A stretch of DNA of 64,000 nucleotides from Streptomyces camelliae (GTDB lineage Bacteria > Actinomycetota > Actinomycetes > Streptomycetales > Streptomycetaceae). The notes beneath the pieces are model-generated. The model saw only the letters and a program-made list of their open reading frames with translations, was not told the origin of the DNA and did no database searches. How positions within the stretch are numbered: position 1 is the first letter of the stretch; each line of letters starts with the position of its first letter. The translations under genes were made by a program, and so were the position numbers. Of this stretch, positions 25,434 to 47,850 are shown one piece after another. The DNA lies in the NCBI RefSeq assembly GCF_027625935.1, contig NZ_CP115300.1, forward strand, positions 7,006,001 to 7,070,000, read 5' to 3'.

Positions 25434-27077
25434 TCAGGTGTCGGAGTCGGGAATGCCGCGTGCCGCCGCGTATGCCTGGGTGGGCGTCATGGAGACACCA
25501 TTGAGGCTGACCGTCTTGTAGGGGCTGACCTTGGCACAGGTCTTGGCCTGGTCGGCGGTGGAGGCATGGGCGCCTCCGACGGCGGCGTGGGTGTCGGCCG
25601 GCGCGGGCGAGGAGCTGCCGCCCGGGAAGCTTGTCCCGCTGGGCCAGTCGCTGCCGATCACCAGGGTCAGGCCCGTGCCGGTGCCCTGCTTCAGCTGCGA
25701 GGAGGGCAGGCCGAGCGCCTTGGCGACCGTCTGCGCCTCCCCCTTCTGGCCGGTGCCGTAGGTCAGCGTGGTCGTGGCGGAGCTCGGGGTGCCGTGGATG
25801 ACCGTGGCGGAACCGAAGCCCTGGTCGGTCAGGGCCGTCGCGACGTCCGCGGCGCGGCCGGTCACCGTGGTGCCGTTCCCCACCGTCACCGCGATCTGGG
25901 AGGCGGGTACGGCCGAAGCGGTGGCCGTGGGTTCGGCGGTGGCCGAGGCCGCGTCGGCCTTCTTGCCCGAATCGGTCGTCAGCGACTGGTCGTTGGCGAT
26001 GGTGGAGAACAGGGTCTTGGCGCCCGGGCCCACGACCACATGGTCCCTGTTGTTCGGATCGGGATCGGTCTGCATCGTCGTGAACGTCATACGCTTGGCA
26101 GGGACCTTGTCCACGTCCGACGCGAGCCCGATCAGTTTCCTCACCGATCCCAGGCCGTCGTCCACGGTCAGCGCCTTGGTGGCGGCGTCGGCGAGGCCAT
26201 AGACCGCGGTGGGGTCGGTGAGGGTGCCGGCGCTCTTGAACTTGCGGATCAGCGAGCTGAGGAAAATGTGCTGCGTCGTCGTACGGCCCAGGTCGCTGCC
26301 GTCGCCGAAGCCGTGCCGGGAGCGGACGAACTCCAGCGCGCCCGAGCCCTTGAGGGTGTGGGTGCCCCTGGACAGCTTCAGATGCGAGTAGGTGTCGTAG
26401 ACGTCGTCGCTGACGCAGACGTCGACGCCGCCGACCGCGTCCGACATCTGCACGACGCCGGAGAAGTCGAGCTTGACGAAATGGTCGATCGGGATGCCGG
26501 TGAGCTGATGGACGGTGGCCACCTGACAGGCAGGCCCGTACGACAAGGCACTGTTGATCTGGCCGTAGTAACCGGACGTGGACTGCCCGGAGACAGGGTC
26601 CTTGCAGGCGGGCACCTGGGTCATGGTGTCGCGCGGCACACTCATCACCGTGGCGTTGGAGCGGTCCGCCGATATGTGCACCACCATCTCCACGTCCGCG
26701 TTCCCGTTGCCGGACTGCACACCGGTCTTCGAACAGCCGCCGCCGAGCCTGCAGTCCTCCGCGCTGGTGCGGCCGTCCGAGCCGATCACCAGGATGTTGA
26801 TCGGGGTGCGGCCGAAGGCGTCGGCCTTCTCGGTGCCGCCCTTGCCGTCCAGGGACACGCTGTGGATGTTGCCGTTCAGGTGCTGGTAGAACCACCAGCC
26901 GACACCGGCCGTACCGAGCACCAGGAGAGACAGGCAGATTCCGGCGATCTTCAGCATTCGCCTGCCGCGTCGCACCGGGCGGCCCCGGCCTGCTCGCCCT
27001 GCCCCGCGCGGGCCTGGCACCGGGGACGTACGACTGCGCGTCGCCCGACCACCTGGCCCGTTCCGCAGGTCGCTCAT
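25434..27077 (-). CDS. LytR-CpsA-Psr (LCP) family cell-wall glycopolymer ligase
   Basis: This 547-residue membrane protein has a basic cytoplasmic N-terminus and one transmembrane helix (MLKIAGICLSLLVLGTAGVGWWFY). The LCP domain carries NILVIGSDGR, ADVEMVVHISADRSNATVMSVPRDTMTQV (catalytic Arg/Asp region) and LEFVRSRHGFGDGSDLGRTTTQHIFLSSL. A Ser/Thr/Ala linker and a LytR_C domain follow (VTVGNGTTVTGRAADVATALTDQGF). LCP enzymes attach teichoic acids or other glycopolymers to peptidoglycan. The ATG at 27077 follows GGAG. A palindromic motif shared with three neighbouring cell-envelope genes lies 39-62 bases upstream. Confidence 0.92.
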   Translation of the reverse strand: MSDLRNGPGGRATRSRTSPVPGPRGAGRAGRGRPVRRGRRMLKIAGICLSLLVLGTAGVGWWFYQHLNGNIHSVSLDGKGGTEKADAFGRTPINILVIGSDGRTSAEDCRLGGGCSKTGVQSGNGNADVEMVVHISADRSNATVMSVPRDTMTQVPACKDPVSGQSTSGYYGQINSALSYGPACQVATVHQLTGIPIDHFVKLDFSGVVQMSDAVGGVDVCVSDDVYDTYSHLKLSRGTHTLKGSGALEFVRSRHGFGDGSDLGRTTTQHIFLSSLIRKFKSAGTLTDPTAVYGLADAATKALTVDDGLGSVRKLIGLASDVDKVPAKRMTFTTMQTDPDPNNRDHVVVGPGAKTLFSTIANDQSLTTDSGKKADAASATAEPTATASAVPASQIAVTVGNGTTVTGRAADVATALTDQGFGSATVIHGTPSSATTTLTYGTGQKGEAQTVAKALGLPSSQLKQGTGTGLTLVIGSDWPSGTSFPGGSSSPAPADTHAAVGGAHASTADQAKTCAKVSPYKTVSLNGVSMTPTQAYAAARGIPDSDT

Positions 27078-27115
27078 CTTCCACTCCCATGACCGGTCGG
27101 GCCCGCCAGGCGTAG

Positions 27116-27139
27116 TTGCGTAGTTGCGCAATCTAGCAA
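27116..27139. promoter_or_regulatory. Shared palindromic motif, site 1 (LCP gene)
   Basis: TTGC-N4-TTGCGCAA-N4-GCAA, fully symmetrical in its half-sites. It is also read as a direct repeat TAGTTGCG-TAGTTGCG at 27113-27128. It lies upstream of the LCP gene. Related sites are at 28021-28044 and 29091-29114. Confidence 0.65.
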
Positions 27140-27212
27140 ATTTAAGCTCGCTGTCGTCCCTGTCCGCCCGCTTCACGCCGGTGACCTTCAACTCCCCCCG
27201 CACGCACGAGAC

Positions 27213-28007
27213 TTACTGCAGGACCCCGACCGCGCGCGAGATGATCAGCGCCAGGGTCAGCAGCGAGATCGTGGACTGCGTGGACATCAGCAGCTTCGCC
27301 CAGCGGGACAGCGGCATGGTGTCGGTGGGGCTGAAGGCCGTGGCGTTGGTGAGGGCCACATACAGGTAGTCCATGTACTGCGGCTCCCAGTCGTCGGGCG
27401 CGATGCCCTCCTGTTGCATCTGGGGGAAGAGGAAGTCCGGATGCTGGCGCGTGCCCAGGGCGCGGGTCACCGGGCCGCCTCGGTCCCACTCCCAGTACCA
27501 GAGGCTGAAGGCGATGACGTTGGTCAGCCAGATGCCGCCTCCCGTCGTCAGCAGGGCCGCGGCATTGGAGCCCTCGGTACCGTGCAGCAGGTCGCGCACC
27601 AGGACGACGGCCGACCAGCCGTTGGCCAGGCTGACCGCGCCGGCCAGCAGCAGGCCCAGCGCGCGCAGCGGGCGGGACCGGTACTCGATCCGTCGGTGGG
27701 GATGGGCCACCCACAGCGCCGCCATCATGGCCAACTCCAGGACGGGCAGCAGCCAGTGCGGGTGGATGCTGAAGCGTTCCGGCAGCGCCCACTGCACCCA
27801 GACGGCAACCAGCAGTGCCGCCATCACCGCCCAACGCTGCTCACCTCTGGTGCGCCGCTGCCACGCGGGACGCTCGGACTCGGATACCTGCTCGGCCGGA
27901 GCGAGCAGGCCCTCGATCCGCTCCAGACGGACATGCAGCAGCTCGGACCAGTGCTCGGGGCCCTGGCGCTGCGGAGGAGGGGTGTCATGGGTGGTCACGG
28001 GCACCAT
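27213..28007 (-). CDS. DUF1345-like integral membrane protein
   Basis: This 264-residue protein has a hydrophilic N-terminus (~60 residues) and about five or six membrane helices. The C-terminal stretch YMDYLYVALTNATAFSPTDTMPLSRWAKLLMSTQSTISLLTLALIISRAVGVL resembles the end of DUF1345 proteins, where a short re-entrant loop precedes the last helix, as in two-helix ion channels. Ion conduction is a guess from this resemblance. The start is uncertain: ATG at 28007 or a nearby GTG. The shared palindrome begins 14 bases upstream of the ATG. Confidence 0.65.
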   Translation of the reverse strand: MVPVTTHDTPPPQRQGPEHWSELLHVRLERIEGLLAPAEQVSESERPAWQRRTRGEQRWAVMAALLVAVWVQWALPERFSIHPHWLLPVLELAMMAALWVAHPHRRIEYRSRPLRALGLLLAGAVSLANGWSAVVLVRDLLHGTEGSNAAALLTTGGGIWLTNVIAFSLWYWEWDRGGPVTRALGTRQHPDFLFPQMQQEGIAPDDWEPQYMDYLYVALTNATAFSPTDTMPLSRWAKLLMSTQSTISLLTLALIISRAVGVLQ

Positions 28008-28020
28008 TCTCGCCAGACGT

Positions 28021-28044
28021 CTGCGATATTGCGCAAGTCTGCAA
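28021..28044. promoter_or_regulatory. Shared palindromic motif, site 2 (DUF1345-like gene)
   Basis: CTGC-N4-TTGCGCAA-N4-GCAA, followed directly by another GCAA (28045-28048). It lies immediately upstream of the DUF1345-like gene and has the same half-site geometry as sites 1 and 3. Confidence 0.65.
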
Positions 28045-28082
28045 GCAATCTCTCTGGTTGGCCGTGGGCCTGCCGCAGTCCG

Positions 28083-29054
28083 TCAAGGTGCAGCGGCCAC
28101 CGCGGGCCGGCTCACGTTCACAGCCACCGTCGAGGAGTTCGCCGACGCGGGCGAGATCTGCGTCCAGCCATGGTCCGAGGCGCCGCTGCTCCATCGACGG
28201 TTGTCGAACGTGACCGACGCGGCGTGCAACGCGTCGGCGTGACAGACCAGCCACAGGGCGAGGGACCAGCCCGTGGCCGTCTCGGTGACCGGGTAGCTGA
28301 CGCTGCTGCCGGTCGCGGGGACGGCGGCCGGCACCCTGCCGAACTCACGTCGGACCGCTGCGGCGACACCACCGCCGTCGCCGCCCTCGTGTACGACGCC
28401 TGCCGTACCGCCGCCCCGACCCGCCCCGGCGTCGTCGGTACCGCTCCCTCCGCCGGCCTGGGCGGCATCCGCCCCGCTCTTGCTCGCTCCGCTGATCGTG
28501 CAGGTCAGCGCGGGCCCCTCCTGTCCCGTCAGCACGTCGGCCAGCGTCGCTGCCGTGGCCTCATGTGATGCGTAGGCCTCCGGGTAGCCACTGTGCTGGA
28601 CATCCTGCGCGGCGACGGTGACCGGTAGGTCGACGTAGTCCGGCACCTTGACCAGTGCGTCGAAGAATTTGCCCGACGCGTAGACGGGGTCGCGGATCTG
28701 GGCGGGGCTGCCCCAGCCCTCGGACGGGCGCTGCTGGAACAGGCCGAGGGAATCCCGGTCCCCGTAGGAGAGATCGCGGAGTTTGGACTCCTGGATCGCG
28801 GTCGCGAGGGCGATGGTGACGGCCCGTTCCGGCAGACCGCGCGCGTGGGCCACGGCCGCGATGGTCGCGGCGTGGGACGCCTGGTCCAGATCGAGTGTGA
28901 CGGTCGTACCGTCCGTGCCATGCGCCGTGCATGCGTCGGACGTCGCCGAGCGGATGAACCGAACGGCGAGATAACCCACGAGCGCGAGGACCACGCCCAC
29001 CCCGATCACGACCGGCCACAGCCTGCGGCGCCCCCGCCTGCTCGCTGCCGCCAC
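28083..29054 (-). CDS. Membrane-anchored lysozyme-like protein
   Basis: This 323-residue protein has an N-terminal membrane anchor (VVIGVGVVLALVGYLAVRFI) followed by a helical lysozyme-like region. IAAVAHARGLPERAVTIALATAIQESKLRDLSYGDRDSLGLFQQRPSEGWGSPAQIRDPVYASGKFFDAL has the catalytic-Glu position (QESK) and the substrate-groove GLFQQRPSxGWG pattern of this actinobacterial family. A Gly-rich linker leads to a C-terminal domain of unknown type. Homologues are often wrongly named heavy-metal transporters. It probably cuts or binds peptidoglycan. It is divergent from the SEDS gene and shares its upstream palindrome. Confidence 0.75.
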   Translation of the reverse strand: MAAASRRGRRRLWPVVIGVGVVLALVGYLAVRFIRSATSDACTAHGTDGTTVTLDLDQASHAATIAAVAHARGLPERAVTIALATAIQESKLRDLSYGDRDSLGLFQQRPSEGWGSPAQIRDPVYASGKFFDALVKVPDYVDLPVTVAAQDVQHSGYPEAYASHEATAATLADVLTGQEGPALTCTISGASKSGADAAQAGGGSGTDDAGAGRGGGTAGVVHEGGDGGGVAAAVRREFGRVPAAVPATGSSVSYPVTETATGWSLALWLVCHADALHAASVTFDNRRWSSGASDHGWTQISPASANSSTVAVNVSRPAVAAAP

Positions 29055-29090
29055 TGGCCCTCCTCTTACCTGCCGTCAGCTACAGTTCAG

Positions 29091-29114
29091 TTGCGTTGTT
29101 GCGCAACCATATAA
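29091..29114. promoter_or_regulatory. Shared palindromic motif, site 3 (divergent lysozyme-like/FtsW genes)
   Basis: TTGC-N4-TTGCGCAA-N4-ATAA; the last half-site is degenerate. It lies between the divergent lysozyme-like gene (37 bases from its start) and the FtsW/RodA gene (60 bases from its start), so one site could control both. Confidence 0.6.
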
Positions 29115-29173: not shown

Positions 29174-30601
29174 ATGACTGGTCGGCGGGGACCGGCACAA
29201 CTGGCAGTGCGGCCAGGCCGGTCAGGACGCCTGAGCGACCGGAACCTGGAGTTGGTCCTGCTCCTCGGCGCCGTCCTCATCTGCGCTTACGGCTATGCCG
29301 AGACGGCCCTCGCCGTCAGCGGGAAGCTGCCGCCGAGTATGGCACTGACGTGCCTGGTCGTGGGCGTGTTGCCCGTGGTGTGCCATGTCGCCGTACGCCG
29401 GTTCGCGCCGCACGCCGATCCGCTGATCCTGCCCCTGGCCACCCTGCTCAGCGGTCTGGGCCTCGTCCTGATCCACCGTCTCGACATCGCCTACGGGACG
29501 CACTACCACCACTCGACGGCCGCGGCGTCGGGGCAGCTGACGTGGTGCGCCATCGCGGTGGCGGTGTTCGCCGGGGCGGTGGCGCTCCTCAAGGACCACC
29601 GCAGGCTTCAGCGTTATCCGTACGTCACGATCACCGTGGGGCTGGTCCTGCTGATGGCGCCGGCTTTCTACCCCGGTGACGTCTACGGCGCCAAGCGGTG
29701 GATCTTCATCGGCCCGCTGTCCTTCCAGCCCGGCGAGTTCGTGAAGATCGTCATCGTGGTCTTCTTCGCGGGATATCTGACGCTGCGCAGGGACGCCCTC
29801 GCGCTCGCCGGGCGGCGTCTCCTCGGCATGTATCTCCCGCGCGGGCGCCAGTTCGGCCCCGTGGCAGCCGTGTGGCTGCTCAGTCTGCTCGTCCTGGTCT
29901 TCGAGCGGGACCTCGGCACCTCGCTGATCTTCTTCGGCCTGTTCGTGATCATGCTGTACGTCGCCACCGAGCGCACCAGCTGGGTGGTGTTCGGCGTCGT
30001 CATGTTCGCCGTCGGCGCCTTCGTCGTCGGGTCCTTCGAACCGCACGTCCATGGCCGTGTCGTCGCCTGGCTGCACCCGATGGACATCTTCCTCCCGCCC
30101 GACAAGCGCCCGCCGGGGCTGATCTCGGACCAGGCCGCCCAGGCCCTGTTCAGCTTCGGTTCGGGCGGCATCCTCGGCACCGGCCTCGGCGAGGGCCATC
30201 CGGAACTCATCGGCTTCGCCGGGCGCAGCGACTTCATCCTCACCACAGTCGGCGAGGAACTCGGCCTGACCGGGGTCACGGTCGTCATCCTGCTCTACGC
30301 CCTGCTCGCCGAGCGCGGCCTGCGTACGGCCCTCACCGTCACCGACCCGTTCGGCAAGCTGCTTGCCGGCGGCCTGGCCTCGGCGCTCGTCCTCCAGGTC
30401 TTCGTGGTCGTGGGTGGTGTCACCGGGCTCATCCCGCTCACCGGCAAGGCGCTGCCCTTCCTCGCCCAGGGCGGCTCGTCCATGGTGGCCAACTGGCTGC
30501 TGGTCGCCGTCCTGATCAAGGTCAGCGACACCGCCCGCCGCCCGCCGCCGATGCCGGCCGCGGACGTCAGTGCCGCCGAGACCCAGTTCGTACGGCCGTG
30601 A
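29174..30601 (+). CDS. FtsW/RodA/SpoVE (SEDS) family peptidoglycan polymerase
   Basis: This 475-residue protein has about ten membrane helices. SEDS hallmarks are GAKRWIFIGPLSFQPGEFVKIVIVVFFAGYL, LLVLVFERDLGTSLIFFGLFVIMLY (catalytic Asp region), SDFILTTVGEELGLTG and GLIPLTGKALPFLAQGGSSMVANWLLVAVLI. SEDS proteins polymerise lipid II glycan strands with a partner class B PBP. The PBP at 14004-15461 is the nearest such partner, but the pairing is inferred. The ATG at 29174 follows AAGGGGA. It is separate from the division cluster, so this is an accessory SEDS copy, likely in the same regulon as the LCP gene. Confidence 0.92.
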   Translation: MTGRRGPAQLAVRPGRSGRLSDRNLELVLLLGAVLICAYGYAETALAVSGKLPPSMALTCLVVGVLPVVCHVAVRRFAPHADPLILPLATLLSGLGLVLIHRLDIAYGTHYHHSTAAASGQLTWCAIAVAVFAGAVALLKDHRRLQRYPYVTITVGLVLLMAPAFYPGDVYGAKRWIFIGPLSFQPGEFVKIVIVVFFAGYLTLRRDALALAGRRLLGMYLPRGRQFGPVAAVWLLSLLVLVFERDLGTSLIFFGLFVIMLYVATERTSWVVFGVVMFAVGAFVVGSFEPHVHGRVVAWLHPMDIFLPPDKRPPGLISDQAAQALFSFGSGGILGTGLGEGHPELIGFAGRSDFILTTVGEELGLTGVTVVILLYALLAERGLRTALTVTDPFGKLLAGGLASALVLQVFVVVGGVTGLIPLTGKALPFLAQGGSSMVANWLLVAVLIKVSDTARRPPPMPAADVSAAETQFVRP

Positions 30602-46438: not shown

Positions 46439-47850
46439 GACGTCCGGCACCTCTCCACGAACCGACGGGCCACACCGGGCTCGGCCGCCCAGTGCGTGTG
46501 CAGATAACTCGCGTGCACGCCCTGCTGTACGAAACCTTCCACCCGCCGTACGGGCGCCCGCACTCCCCAGGCGGGAGCCGCCCCGGCGCCGGGCTCGACA
46601 ACGGTGCGATGGAACTCGTGCCCCCGCATCCGCGTCCCGGCGACGGCCAGCACACTGTCCCCGACGGCCACGGCCTCCCGGTAACCGAGCGTCAGCCGCT
46701 GCGTCATCCGCGCGGTGGCATCCAGCACCCCGCACATGGGCTGCCCGTCCAACTCCCGGCAGAGATAGAGCAGTCCGGCACATTCGGCGGCCACGGGGGC
46801 ACCGCCGAGGGCCAGCTCCGCGACGGCCTTGCGCAACGGCTCGTTGGCGGCCAGCTCACCGGCGTACACCTCGGGGAAACCCCCACCGATGACCAACCCT
46901 GCGGTGCCTTCGGGCAGTTGCTCGTCACGGAGGGGATCGAAGGTGACGACGTCGGCACCGGCTGCGGCGAGCAGCTCGGTGTGCTCGGCGTAGGAGAAGG
47001 TGAAGGCGGGTCCACCGGCGACGGCGACGACGGGGGTCGGCTTCCCGGCCGACGGTTCGGGCCCGCCCTGCCCTCGCCTCCCGGCCGAGCGAGTCGGGTG
47101 GAGGGCGGACGAGGCGGGGGTCCAGGGGGCGGAGCCCCCTGGTACGGGACCGGCAGCACGGGCCAGTGCCTCCAGCGCCGCCATGTCACAGCCGGCGGAC
47201 ACCTGCGCAGCCATCGCGGCGACGGCCTCGACCGCGGCGGAGCCCCGCTCGGCGACCGGCACCAGCCCAAGGTGCCGAGAAGGCGTGTCCACCTGCTGAG
47301 CCCGCCGCAGGGCACCCAGCACCGGCACACCGGCCGAATCCAACGCCTCCCGCAGCAACTCCTCATGCCGGTCGGAGCCCACCTTGTTGAGGATCACGCC
47401 CCCGACCCGCACCCCCGGATCCCAGGAAGCGAACCCGTGCACCAGCGCGGCGACGGACCGGGACTGCGACGACGCGTCGACCACCAGCACCACCGGAGCG
47501 CCCAGCAGCTTGGCCACGTGCGCGGTGGAGGCCAGCTCGCCTTCGCCCGCCGCCCCGTCGTACAGCCCCATCACACCCTCGACCACGGCCAGGTCGCACC
47601 CCCGTGCCCCGTGCAGGAACAGCGGAGCGATCAGCTCCGGCCCGCACAGGTAGGCGTCCAGGTTCCGCCCGGTCCGCCCGGTCGCGAGCGCGTGGTACCC
47701 GGGGTCGATGTAGTCCGGCCCGACCTTGTGCGGGGACACGGCGAGCCCCCGCGCGGCGAACGCGGCCATCAGCCCCGTGGCCACGGTGGTCTTGCCGCTG
47801 CCCGAGGCGGGCGCGGCGATGACCAGCCGTGGCACCGACGACCTCACCAC
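46435..47850 (-). CDS. cobB: Cobyrinate / hydrogenobyrinate a,c-diamide synthase
   Basis: This 471-residue protein has an N-terminal P-loop amide-ligase domain (VIAAPASGSGKTTVATGLMAAFAARG, VGPDYIDPGYHALATGR, VVEGVMGLYDGAAG) and a C-terminal class I glutamine amidotransferase-like domain (GLVIGGGFPEVYAGELAANEPL, VAAECAGLLYLCREL with the nucleophile Cys). It amidates the a and c side chains. The linker (about residues 234-265, GSAPWTPASSALHPTRSAGR) is partly encoded by a ~55-bp repeat also present at 38376-38426, apparently a tolerated in-frame insertion. It overlaps cobO and cobI. Confidence 0.93.
   Translation of the reverse strand: MVRSSVPRLVIAAPASGSGKTTVATGLMAAFAARGLAVSPHKVGPDYIDPGYHALATGRTGRNLDAYLCGPELIAPLFLHGARGCDLAVVEGVMGLYDGAAGEGELASTAHVAKLLGAPVVLVVDASSQSRSVAALVHGFASWDPGVRVGGVILNKVGSDRHEELLREALDSAGVPVLGALRRAQQVDTPSRHLGLVPVAERGSAAVEAVAAMAAQVSAGCDMAALEALARAAGPVPGGSAPWTPASSALHPTRSAGRRGQGGPEPSAGKPTPVVAVAGGPAFTFSYAEHTELLAAAGADVVTFDPLRDEQLPEGTAGLVIGGGFPEVYAGELAANEPLRKAVAELALGGAPVAAECAGLLYLCRELDGQPMCGVLDATARMTQRLTLGYREAVAVGDSVLAVAGTRMRGHEFHRTVVEPGAGAAPAWGVRAPVRRVEGFVQQGVHASYLHTHWAAEPGVARRFVERCRTS
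47094..47148. repeat. Dispersed repeat inserted in the cobB linker
   Basis: Close match to the intergenic repeat at 38376-38426, starting TCGGGTGGAGGGCGGACGAG and containing GGGGGCGGAGCCCCC, a strong hairpin. It lies within cobB between its two domains and keeps the reading frame. Confidence 0.75.

Follow-up and report, generated by a model that had tools for sequence, protein, structure and literature searches.

Which protein, if any, reads a palindrome that recurs in front of neighboring cell-envelope genes of Streptomyces camelliae? The window analyzed here, a chromosomal stretch of 64,000 nucleotides, had been predicted from its letters alone to contain three copies of a 24-base element shared between promoters, and all three were found where the original prediction had placed them (no strand is assigned to them). 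Operator 1 (27116..27139, TTGCGTAGTTGCGCAATCTAGCAA) precedes a gene for an LCP-family glycopolymer transferase with LytR_cpsA_psr and LytR_C domains (25434..27077, minus strand; TIGR00350, 136.9 bits with a cut-off of 62.3; PF03816, 147.7 bits with a cut-off of 24.6). Operator 2 (28021..28044, CTGCGATATTGCGCAAGTCTGCAA) precedes a gene for a membrane protein that is weakly DUF1345-like (27213..28007, minus strand; 20.6 bits, under the Pfam gathering score of 31.8). Operator 3 (29091..29114, TTGCGTTGTTGCGCAACCATATAA) is common to two divergent genes. One encodes a lysozyme-like protein with an N-terminal membrane segment (28083..29054, minus strand), named from reading of the sequence and without a match in the Pfam or NCBIfam scan. 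The other encodes a glycan polymerase of the FtsW/RodA/SpoVE family (29174..30601, plus strand; PF01098, 231.8 bits with a cut-off of 26.4) that scores under both the FtsW and the RodA equivalog cut-offs. The proposed architecture, TTGC-N4-TTGCGCAA-N4-GCAA, is exact in operator 1, but operators 2 and 3 deviate from it by one and two mismatches, respectively; the left part TGCG-N3-TTGCGCAA is common to all three. Each element occupies a promoter position, as had been claimed. Site 1 is separated from the LCP start codon (ATG at 27077) by 38 bp and site 2 from the DUF1345-like start (28007) by 13 bp; site 3 is 36 bp away from the lysozyme-like start (29054) and 59 bp away from the FtsW/RodA start (29174). 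The longest listed LCP reading frame (25434-27203) would run through site 1; the later start was our choice and agrees with most LCP gene calls of other genomes.

The elements stand out sharply within the window. In dinucleotide shuffles of the window, 0.01 matches to the pattern are expected, and none of 100 shuffles had three. The core TTGCGCAA occurs four times, compared with 0.43 copies expected from base composition; the fourth copy, at 46829, is without good outer half-sites. A weight matrix built solely from sites of other genomes, with none from S. camelliae, scores sites 1, 2 and 3 at 36.1, 25.8 and 27.9, respectively, which makes them the best, third-best and second-best matches of the window. 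The next-best position by this independent matrix, with a score of 7.6, overlaps site 1, and no position in the window reaches 5 with the reversed matrix. The region of site 1 begins with GTAGTTGC doubled head to tail (8 bp, 27112-27135), and this doubling gives rise to a second, weaker matrix match (10.0) at 27108.

Across the whole S. camelliae genome, the motif signal resides in close matches. With up to three mismatches to the 24-base pattern there are 13 places in the genome and 13 in a backwards control, so that such loose matches are uninformative. With at most one mismatch the pattern occurs at six places versus none in the control, and the related form TT-N6-TTGCGCAA-N6-AA, again with at most one mismatch, at nine versus one, in agreement with the claim that the recurrence is unlikely to be due to chance. 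Altogether, we recognize ten likely sites, distributed over six regions of the chromosome, the three of the window among them. The others lie before a second LCP gene, LCP2 (C1:8470996, the same 24 bases as site 1 in inverted orientation), between TerD and GlsB-like genes (C1:8469574), before an extra TatA gene followed by TerD (C1:8536579), before a RodA paralogue, RodA2 (C1:4219764, with two mismatches and outside the nine places above), before a LURP-one-related gene (C1:5737066), before a gene for a small protein (C1:8473179, with a low matrix score of 5.7), and downstream of a PPK2 gene (C1:8612735), a position for which we rejected PPK2 as a target. The family of the small protein has a site close upstream at three further loci (L197, L288, L137). 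A position 180 bp upstream of an apparently SulP-transporter-like gene (C1:8800131, matrix score 21.6) is an uncertain addition. In these assignments GlsB, RodA2 and the small protein were named by reading of the sequence, and TatA, TerD, LURP-one and the ATPase discussed below by Pfam or NCBIfam. The proposal of a shared operator of a cell-envelope regulon is strongly supported; its scope of four local genes was incomplete.

The motif is conserved well beyond this genome. According to the tabulated counts, the exact form TTG-N5-TTGCGCAA-N5-CAA is present in 64 of 199 genomes of the genus and 92 of 293 genomes of the order, whereas the backwards control occurs in one genome of each sample; within the order sample it is restricted to one of nine genera, namely that of the window. 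If one mismatch is allowed, 74 of the 199 genus genomes have the motif, and since the control then matches 17 genomes, single matches at this threshold can be due to chance. In 80 named loci, which are 80% coding, 94 of 96 site midpoints are intergenic and only two are coding. Orthologous promoters keep the site as well: it is found at the divergent RodA/lysozyme-like promoter of one genome (G158, L141:6530), at the DUF1345-like promoter of another (G181, L138:11641), and in a non-redundant set of 27 window-type LCP promoters. The original prediction thus withstood both of the checks set to refute it, which were frequent occurrence in coding DNA and absence from orthologous promoters. We also compiled 171 distinct sites (matrix score of at least 18, exact duplicate contexts merged, tandem repeat matches at L010 and L011 left out). 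Starts near these sites belong to LCP (80), TatA (58), TerD (19), GlsB (18) and ArsR (17) genes, counts that are biased by the many loci fetched around ArsR. RodA, DUF1345-like, lysozyme-like, LURP-one and phosphatase genes are rare neighbors; 15 sites have no predicted gene nearby and six have only uncharacterized ones.

The shape of the operator was derived from non-redundant sets of 55 TatA, 41 LCP and 27 window-type LCP promoters, from which near-duplicate contexts had been removed. All three sets hold about 42 bits within 24 bp. The flanks carry about 0.1 bit per position in the TatA and LCP sets, except for a GG that immediately precedes the TTGTACAG half and an A located four bases ahead of the TTGCTACA half. 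A symmetric dyad of 32 bp was rejected, because the conserved flanking bases differ between the two ends. In the window-type LCP set the upstream flank is conserved too, which may reflect kinship. The half that faces TatA is commonly TTG-TACAGT-TGC, and the half that faces LCP is commonly TTGC-TACATT-GC or TTGT-TAGATT-GC; each holds a TANNNT, which we infer to be the -10 box. The distance from site to start ranges from 13 to 115 bp for TatA and, on crude gene calls, from -79 to 371 bp for LCP (median 160).

No regulator gene had been seen beside the three operators, which is correct within the window, and a candidate came from elsewhere. Some motif sites adjoin a gene of the ArsR/SmtB family, often itself beside a gene for a magnesium-type P-type ATPase. 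In S. camelliae such a gene (C1:4224803-4225162) lies upstream of the ATPase gene, at a distance of 5 kb from the RodA2 site; a close paralogue (C1:2197752-2198093) has a TerB-like gene as its neighbor. The candidate belongs to the family by PF01022 (37.4 bits, cut-off 22) and NF033788 (74.8 bits, cut-off 55), and the adjacent ATPase scores above the cut-off of the magnesium model TIGR01524 (698.5 versus 610.75 bits). A site scoring at least 18 was found within 6 kb in 64 of the 80 named ArsR loci, compared with none of 80 for the reversed matrix.

Motif and ArsR gene also co-occur across genomes. An ArsR orthologue (E 1e-25 or better) is present in 70 of the 199 genus genomes. With tables and Fisher values that treat related genomes as independent, the exact motif and ArsR are both present in 63 genomes and both absent from 128, with seven having ArsR only and one the motif only (1.3e-42); with one mismatch allowed, the corresponding numbers are 66, 121, four and eight (2.2e-38). 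On the same footing, a second sample of 293 genomes has 91 with both, 180 with neither, 21 with ArsR only and one with the motif only, and its 235 genomes new to the first sample have 75, 145, 14 and one, respectively (1.2e-45).

Many of the discordant genomes could be looked at individually. In the motif-only genome of the second sample (G363), both ends of an ArsR gene flank a run of N. The motif-only genomes at one mismatch are G010, G180, G092, G176, G109, G125, G067 and G112. The sites of G109 and G125 are off-consensus, and G180 (95% complete, 6% contaminated), G092 and G176 have a good site and no ArsR orthologue found by profile search. In G010 (L127:10700-11300) the ArsR match upstream of the ATPase is broken into two frames and the LCP operator is intact. 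Among the ArsR-only genomes of the first sample, three (G031, G187, G203) have sites with one mismatch, one (G059) has sites scoring up to 20.1, and two (G040, G206) lack a site in the sequence examined. In the second sample, 21 genomes have ArsR only: nine outside the genus, two of which (G369, G434) have sites of 20.1 and 28.5, and 12 inside it. Of the latter we opened 11, leaving out G409. Near ArsR, nine of these have a site of lower score (15 to 34), and the sequence examined from G209 and G311 shows none. One of the profiles used, A1, contained a KmtR-like row, and its matches in motif-lacking genomes were checked by neighborhood at ten loci. Five of them (L227, L228, L229, L230, L231) lie beside CDF-type genes, two (L226, L232) are KmtR-like by sequence, two (L234, L235) are other ArsR proteins, and L233 is the G010 locus.

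In 40 genomes that lack ArsR, no best LCP match exceeds 48% identity to the LCP protein of the window. The window LCP subfamily thus seems, by sequence comparison, to be confined to ArsR-bearing genomes, and co-occurrence alone cannot separate a regulator from targets that are inherited together with it. We took 20 site-centered regions from the 64 exact-motif genomes, regardless of ArsR and with the site inside a longer contig, and found ArsR within 8 kb in 17 of them. Besides four module clusters (ArsR and the ATPase fall into one cluster owing to one fused gene call), these regions contain 25 recurrent protein clusters. A Pfam scan of 18 of the 25 yielded a TetR protein, present in four of the 20 regions, as the sole further regulator. 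In addition, a site lies within 420 bp upstream of 13 of 79 ArsR genes in the named loci (L184 was left out of this count), and of none of 79 after shuffling. Autoregulation is usual for ArsR repressors. In this system it does not seem to be general: the other 66 of the 79 genes have no site within that distance, and neither do the two S. camelliae paralogues have one just upstream.

A genus of another family, g3, provides a further view of the ArsR promoter. Its sample includes seven ArsR-bearing genomes, all of them close kin, and the exact motif was not found there in the search of order genomes. Each of the seven ArsR loci (L280, L281, L282, L299, L300, L301, L302) holds exactly one TTGCGCAA, always upstream of ArsR, while 0.6 such cores are expected in all 87,472 bases of these loci. 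The element reads TCAA-N4-TTGCGCAA-N4-TTGA in five of the seven and has TCGA at one end in the other two, and it overlaps the sequence TTGAGY-17/18-CACAAT. A long gene directly follows ArsR in six of the seven loci, and the two that were scanned encode P-type ATPases. That the g3 ArsR promoters have a TTGCGCAA of their own suggests that the ArsR unit is older than the Streptomyces regulon. The 17 of 20 site-centered regions, the 13 of 79 upstream sites and the seven of seven g3 promoters point to ArsR as the reader.

Several other readings of the element were considered. That it is a product of chance or a dispersed repeat has a negligible probability: the genome count at up to three mismatches does equal that of the control, but the close matches do not, many copies are placed in promoters with diverged flanks, and the counts of 64 versus one and 92 versus one genomes, together with the intergenic placement, refute it. 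It is also very unlikely that the element is the promoter of an alternative sigma factor and not an operator. The TANNNT often seen in the gene-facing half (TACAGT toward TatA, TACATT or TAGATT toward LCP) would fit such a promoter; yet the element has dyad symmetry, its distance to the start varies, a conserved -35 is missing from the TatA set and from one of the LCP sets, and in g3 the element overlaps the -35 of an ordinary-looking promoter.

If the element is an operator, a protein other than ArsR could read it. A BlaI/MecI-type repressor with an M56 sensor peptidase, acting in a response to wall antibiotics, comes to mind because a BlaI-like and M56-like pair lies near the TerD/GlsB and LCP2 sites (C1:8.47 Mb; L014:7645-8979) and such pairs are near sites in G158 too (L139, L140). 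However, BlaI orthologues of at least 80% identity are present in six of the 199 genomes, compared with 64 for the exact motif, and homologues at E 1e-15 or better in 156; this distribution does not track the motif, and we rejected the pair as regulator, regarding it as even less probable than a sigma factor. The alternative with the largest share of the remaining doubt, although still improbable, is that some other DNA-binding protein, either co-inherited or present in all Streptomyces, reads the operator and that ArsR controls the magnesium-type ATPase only. It would account for the many ArsR promoters that have no site, for the good sites of G180, G092 and G176, and for the joint inheritance of targets and ArsR. 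Against it, the scanned clusters include one other regulator, in four of 20 regions, the site-bearing ArsR promoters score far above shuffles, and the core in each g3 region is solely in the ArsR promoter; in addition, the 128 of 199 genomes that lack both motif and ArsR would be unexpected with a universal regulator. We therefore regard the three palindromes as very probably the operators of one ArsR/SmtB-family repressor that is encoded elsewhere in the genome, as judged from the sequence comparisons above.

Under control by ArsR, a dimer of the protein would read the dyad TTGYNNNNTTGC/GCAANNNNRCAA. Since a -10-like TANNNT is frequent in the gene-facing half, binding of the dimer would occlude the promoter, and in the case of the shared site both promoters of the divergent pair. 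Upon a signal the dimer would leave the DNA, and accessory envelope genes would be switched on together, among them those for LCP ligases, extra RodA/FtsW proteins, the lysozyme-like protein, an additional TatA, TerD, GlsB and small proteins. As for the signal, our guess is magnesium or envelope stress, from the magnesium-type ATPase, TerD and the wall genes.

The candidate is modeled (pLDDT 87.5) as a winged helix for which SqrR, SmtB and CzrA are the nearest folds, and SqrR is its best solved match by sequence (51.7 bits) as well as by fold. The sulfur sensors SqrR and BigR work through a pair of cysteines and regulate sulfide genes. In an alignment of 32 ArsR rows, His33 and His62 are the sole invariant histidines and no cysteine is present in more than three rows; from this residue conservation, both the NmtR ligand set and an SqrR-type cysteine pair are absent, and in the lack of a conserved cysteine the candidate is unlike SqrR/BigR. 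With SmtB, NmtR and CzrA it has the winged-helix fold in common, but these control one or a few adjacent genes, whereas the candidate would have about ten scattered sites. The P-type ATPase neighbor resembles the pairing of NmtR with NmtA, as described in PMC7055735. The NmtR ligands given there are His3, Asp91, His93, His104 and His107, for which the tail of the candidate offers no conserved histidine as a counterpart. Metal sensing through a known ligand set was thus rejected, since the ligands are missing; a site could be formed by other residues.

Another relative is KmtR of Mycobacterium tuberculosis, an ArsR-family nickel/cobalt sensor that controls a CDF exporter, according to PMC7055735. 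S. camelliae has a protein that we read as KmtR-like beside a CDF-type gene (C1:7716040, L055:1462-1803). It has the ArsR fold and the segment PAVSQHLxxLxLAGLV in common with the protein labeled ArsR-A, to which it is 39% identical in alignment, but its histidine-bearing tail is missing in ArsR-A, and its neighbor encodes a CDF protein and not a magnesium-type P-type ATPase as for the candidate. No matrix match of at least 8 was found at the KmtR-like locus. The TTGC and GCAA half-sites of the motif resemble those of Nur and other TTGCAA-type Streptomyces operators, which differ in spacing and protein family.

ArsR-family repressors are mostly known as local metal or sulfur sensors, and a dispersed accessory envelope regulon under ArsR would, if true, be a new use of the family. 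A search of open-licence papers, and hence weak evidence, gave no description of the motif or of such an ArsR regulon. Tentatively, and with slightly more doubt than belief, we propose that an ArsR protein without a known metal site arose beside a magnesium pump and is now the genome-wide switch of an inducible second envelope-building kit, joining magnesium or envelope stress to wall remodeling in about a third of Streptomyces. Such a regulon would tie together poorly understood genes (the extra LCPs, the second TatA, TerD and GlsB), and its promoters would offer a ready reporter for an envelope or magnesium signal in antibiotic-producing bacteria.

The named carriers of the motif are mostly Streptomyces, plus Actinacidiphila alni and Microtetraspora fusca. 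In M. fusca, outside Streptomyces, ArsR occurs with an LCP-site-TatA arrangement (L223), a module perhaps acquired by transfer. A weaker sub-class of sites has TTC for TTG at one end and scores from 16.6 to 20.1 (L144:11667, L075:2988, L070:2267, L072:2447, L131:1848); some of these sites precede genes for TerD, LCP or small membrane proteins.
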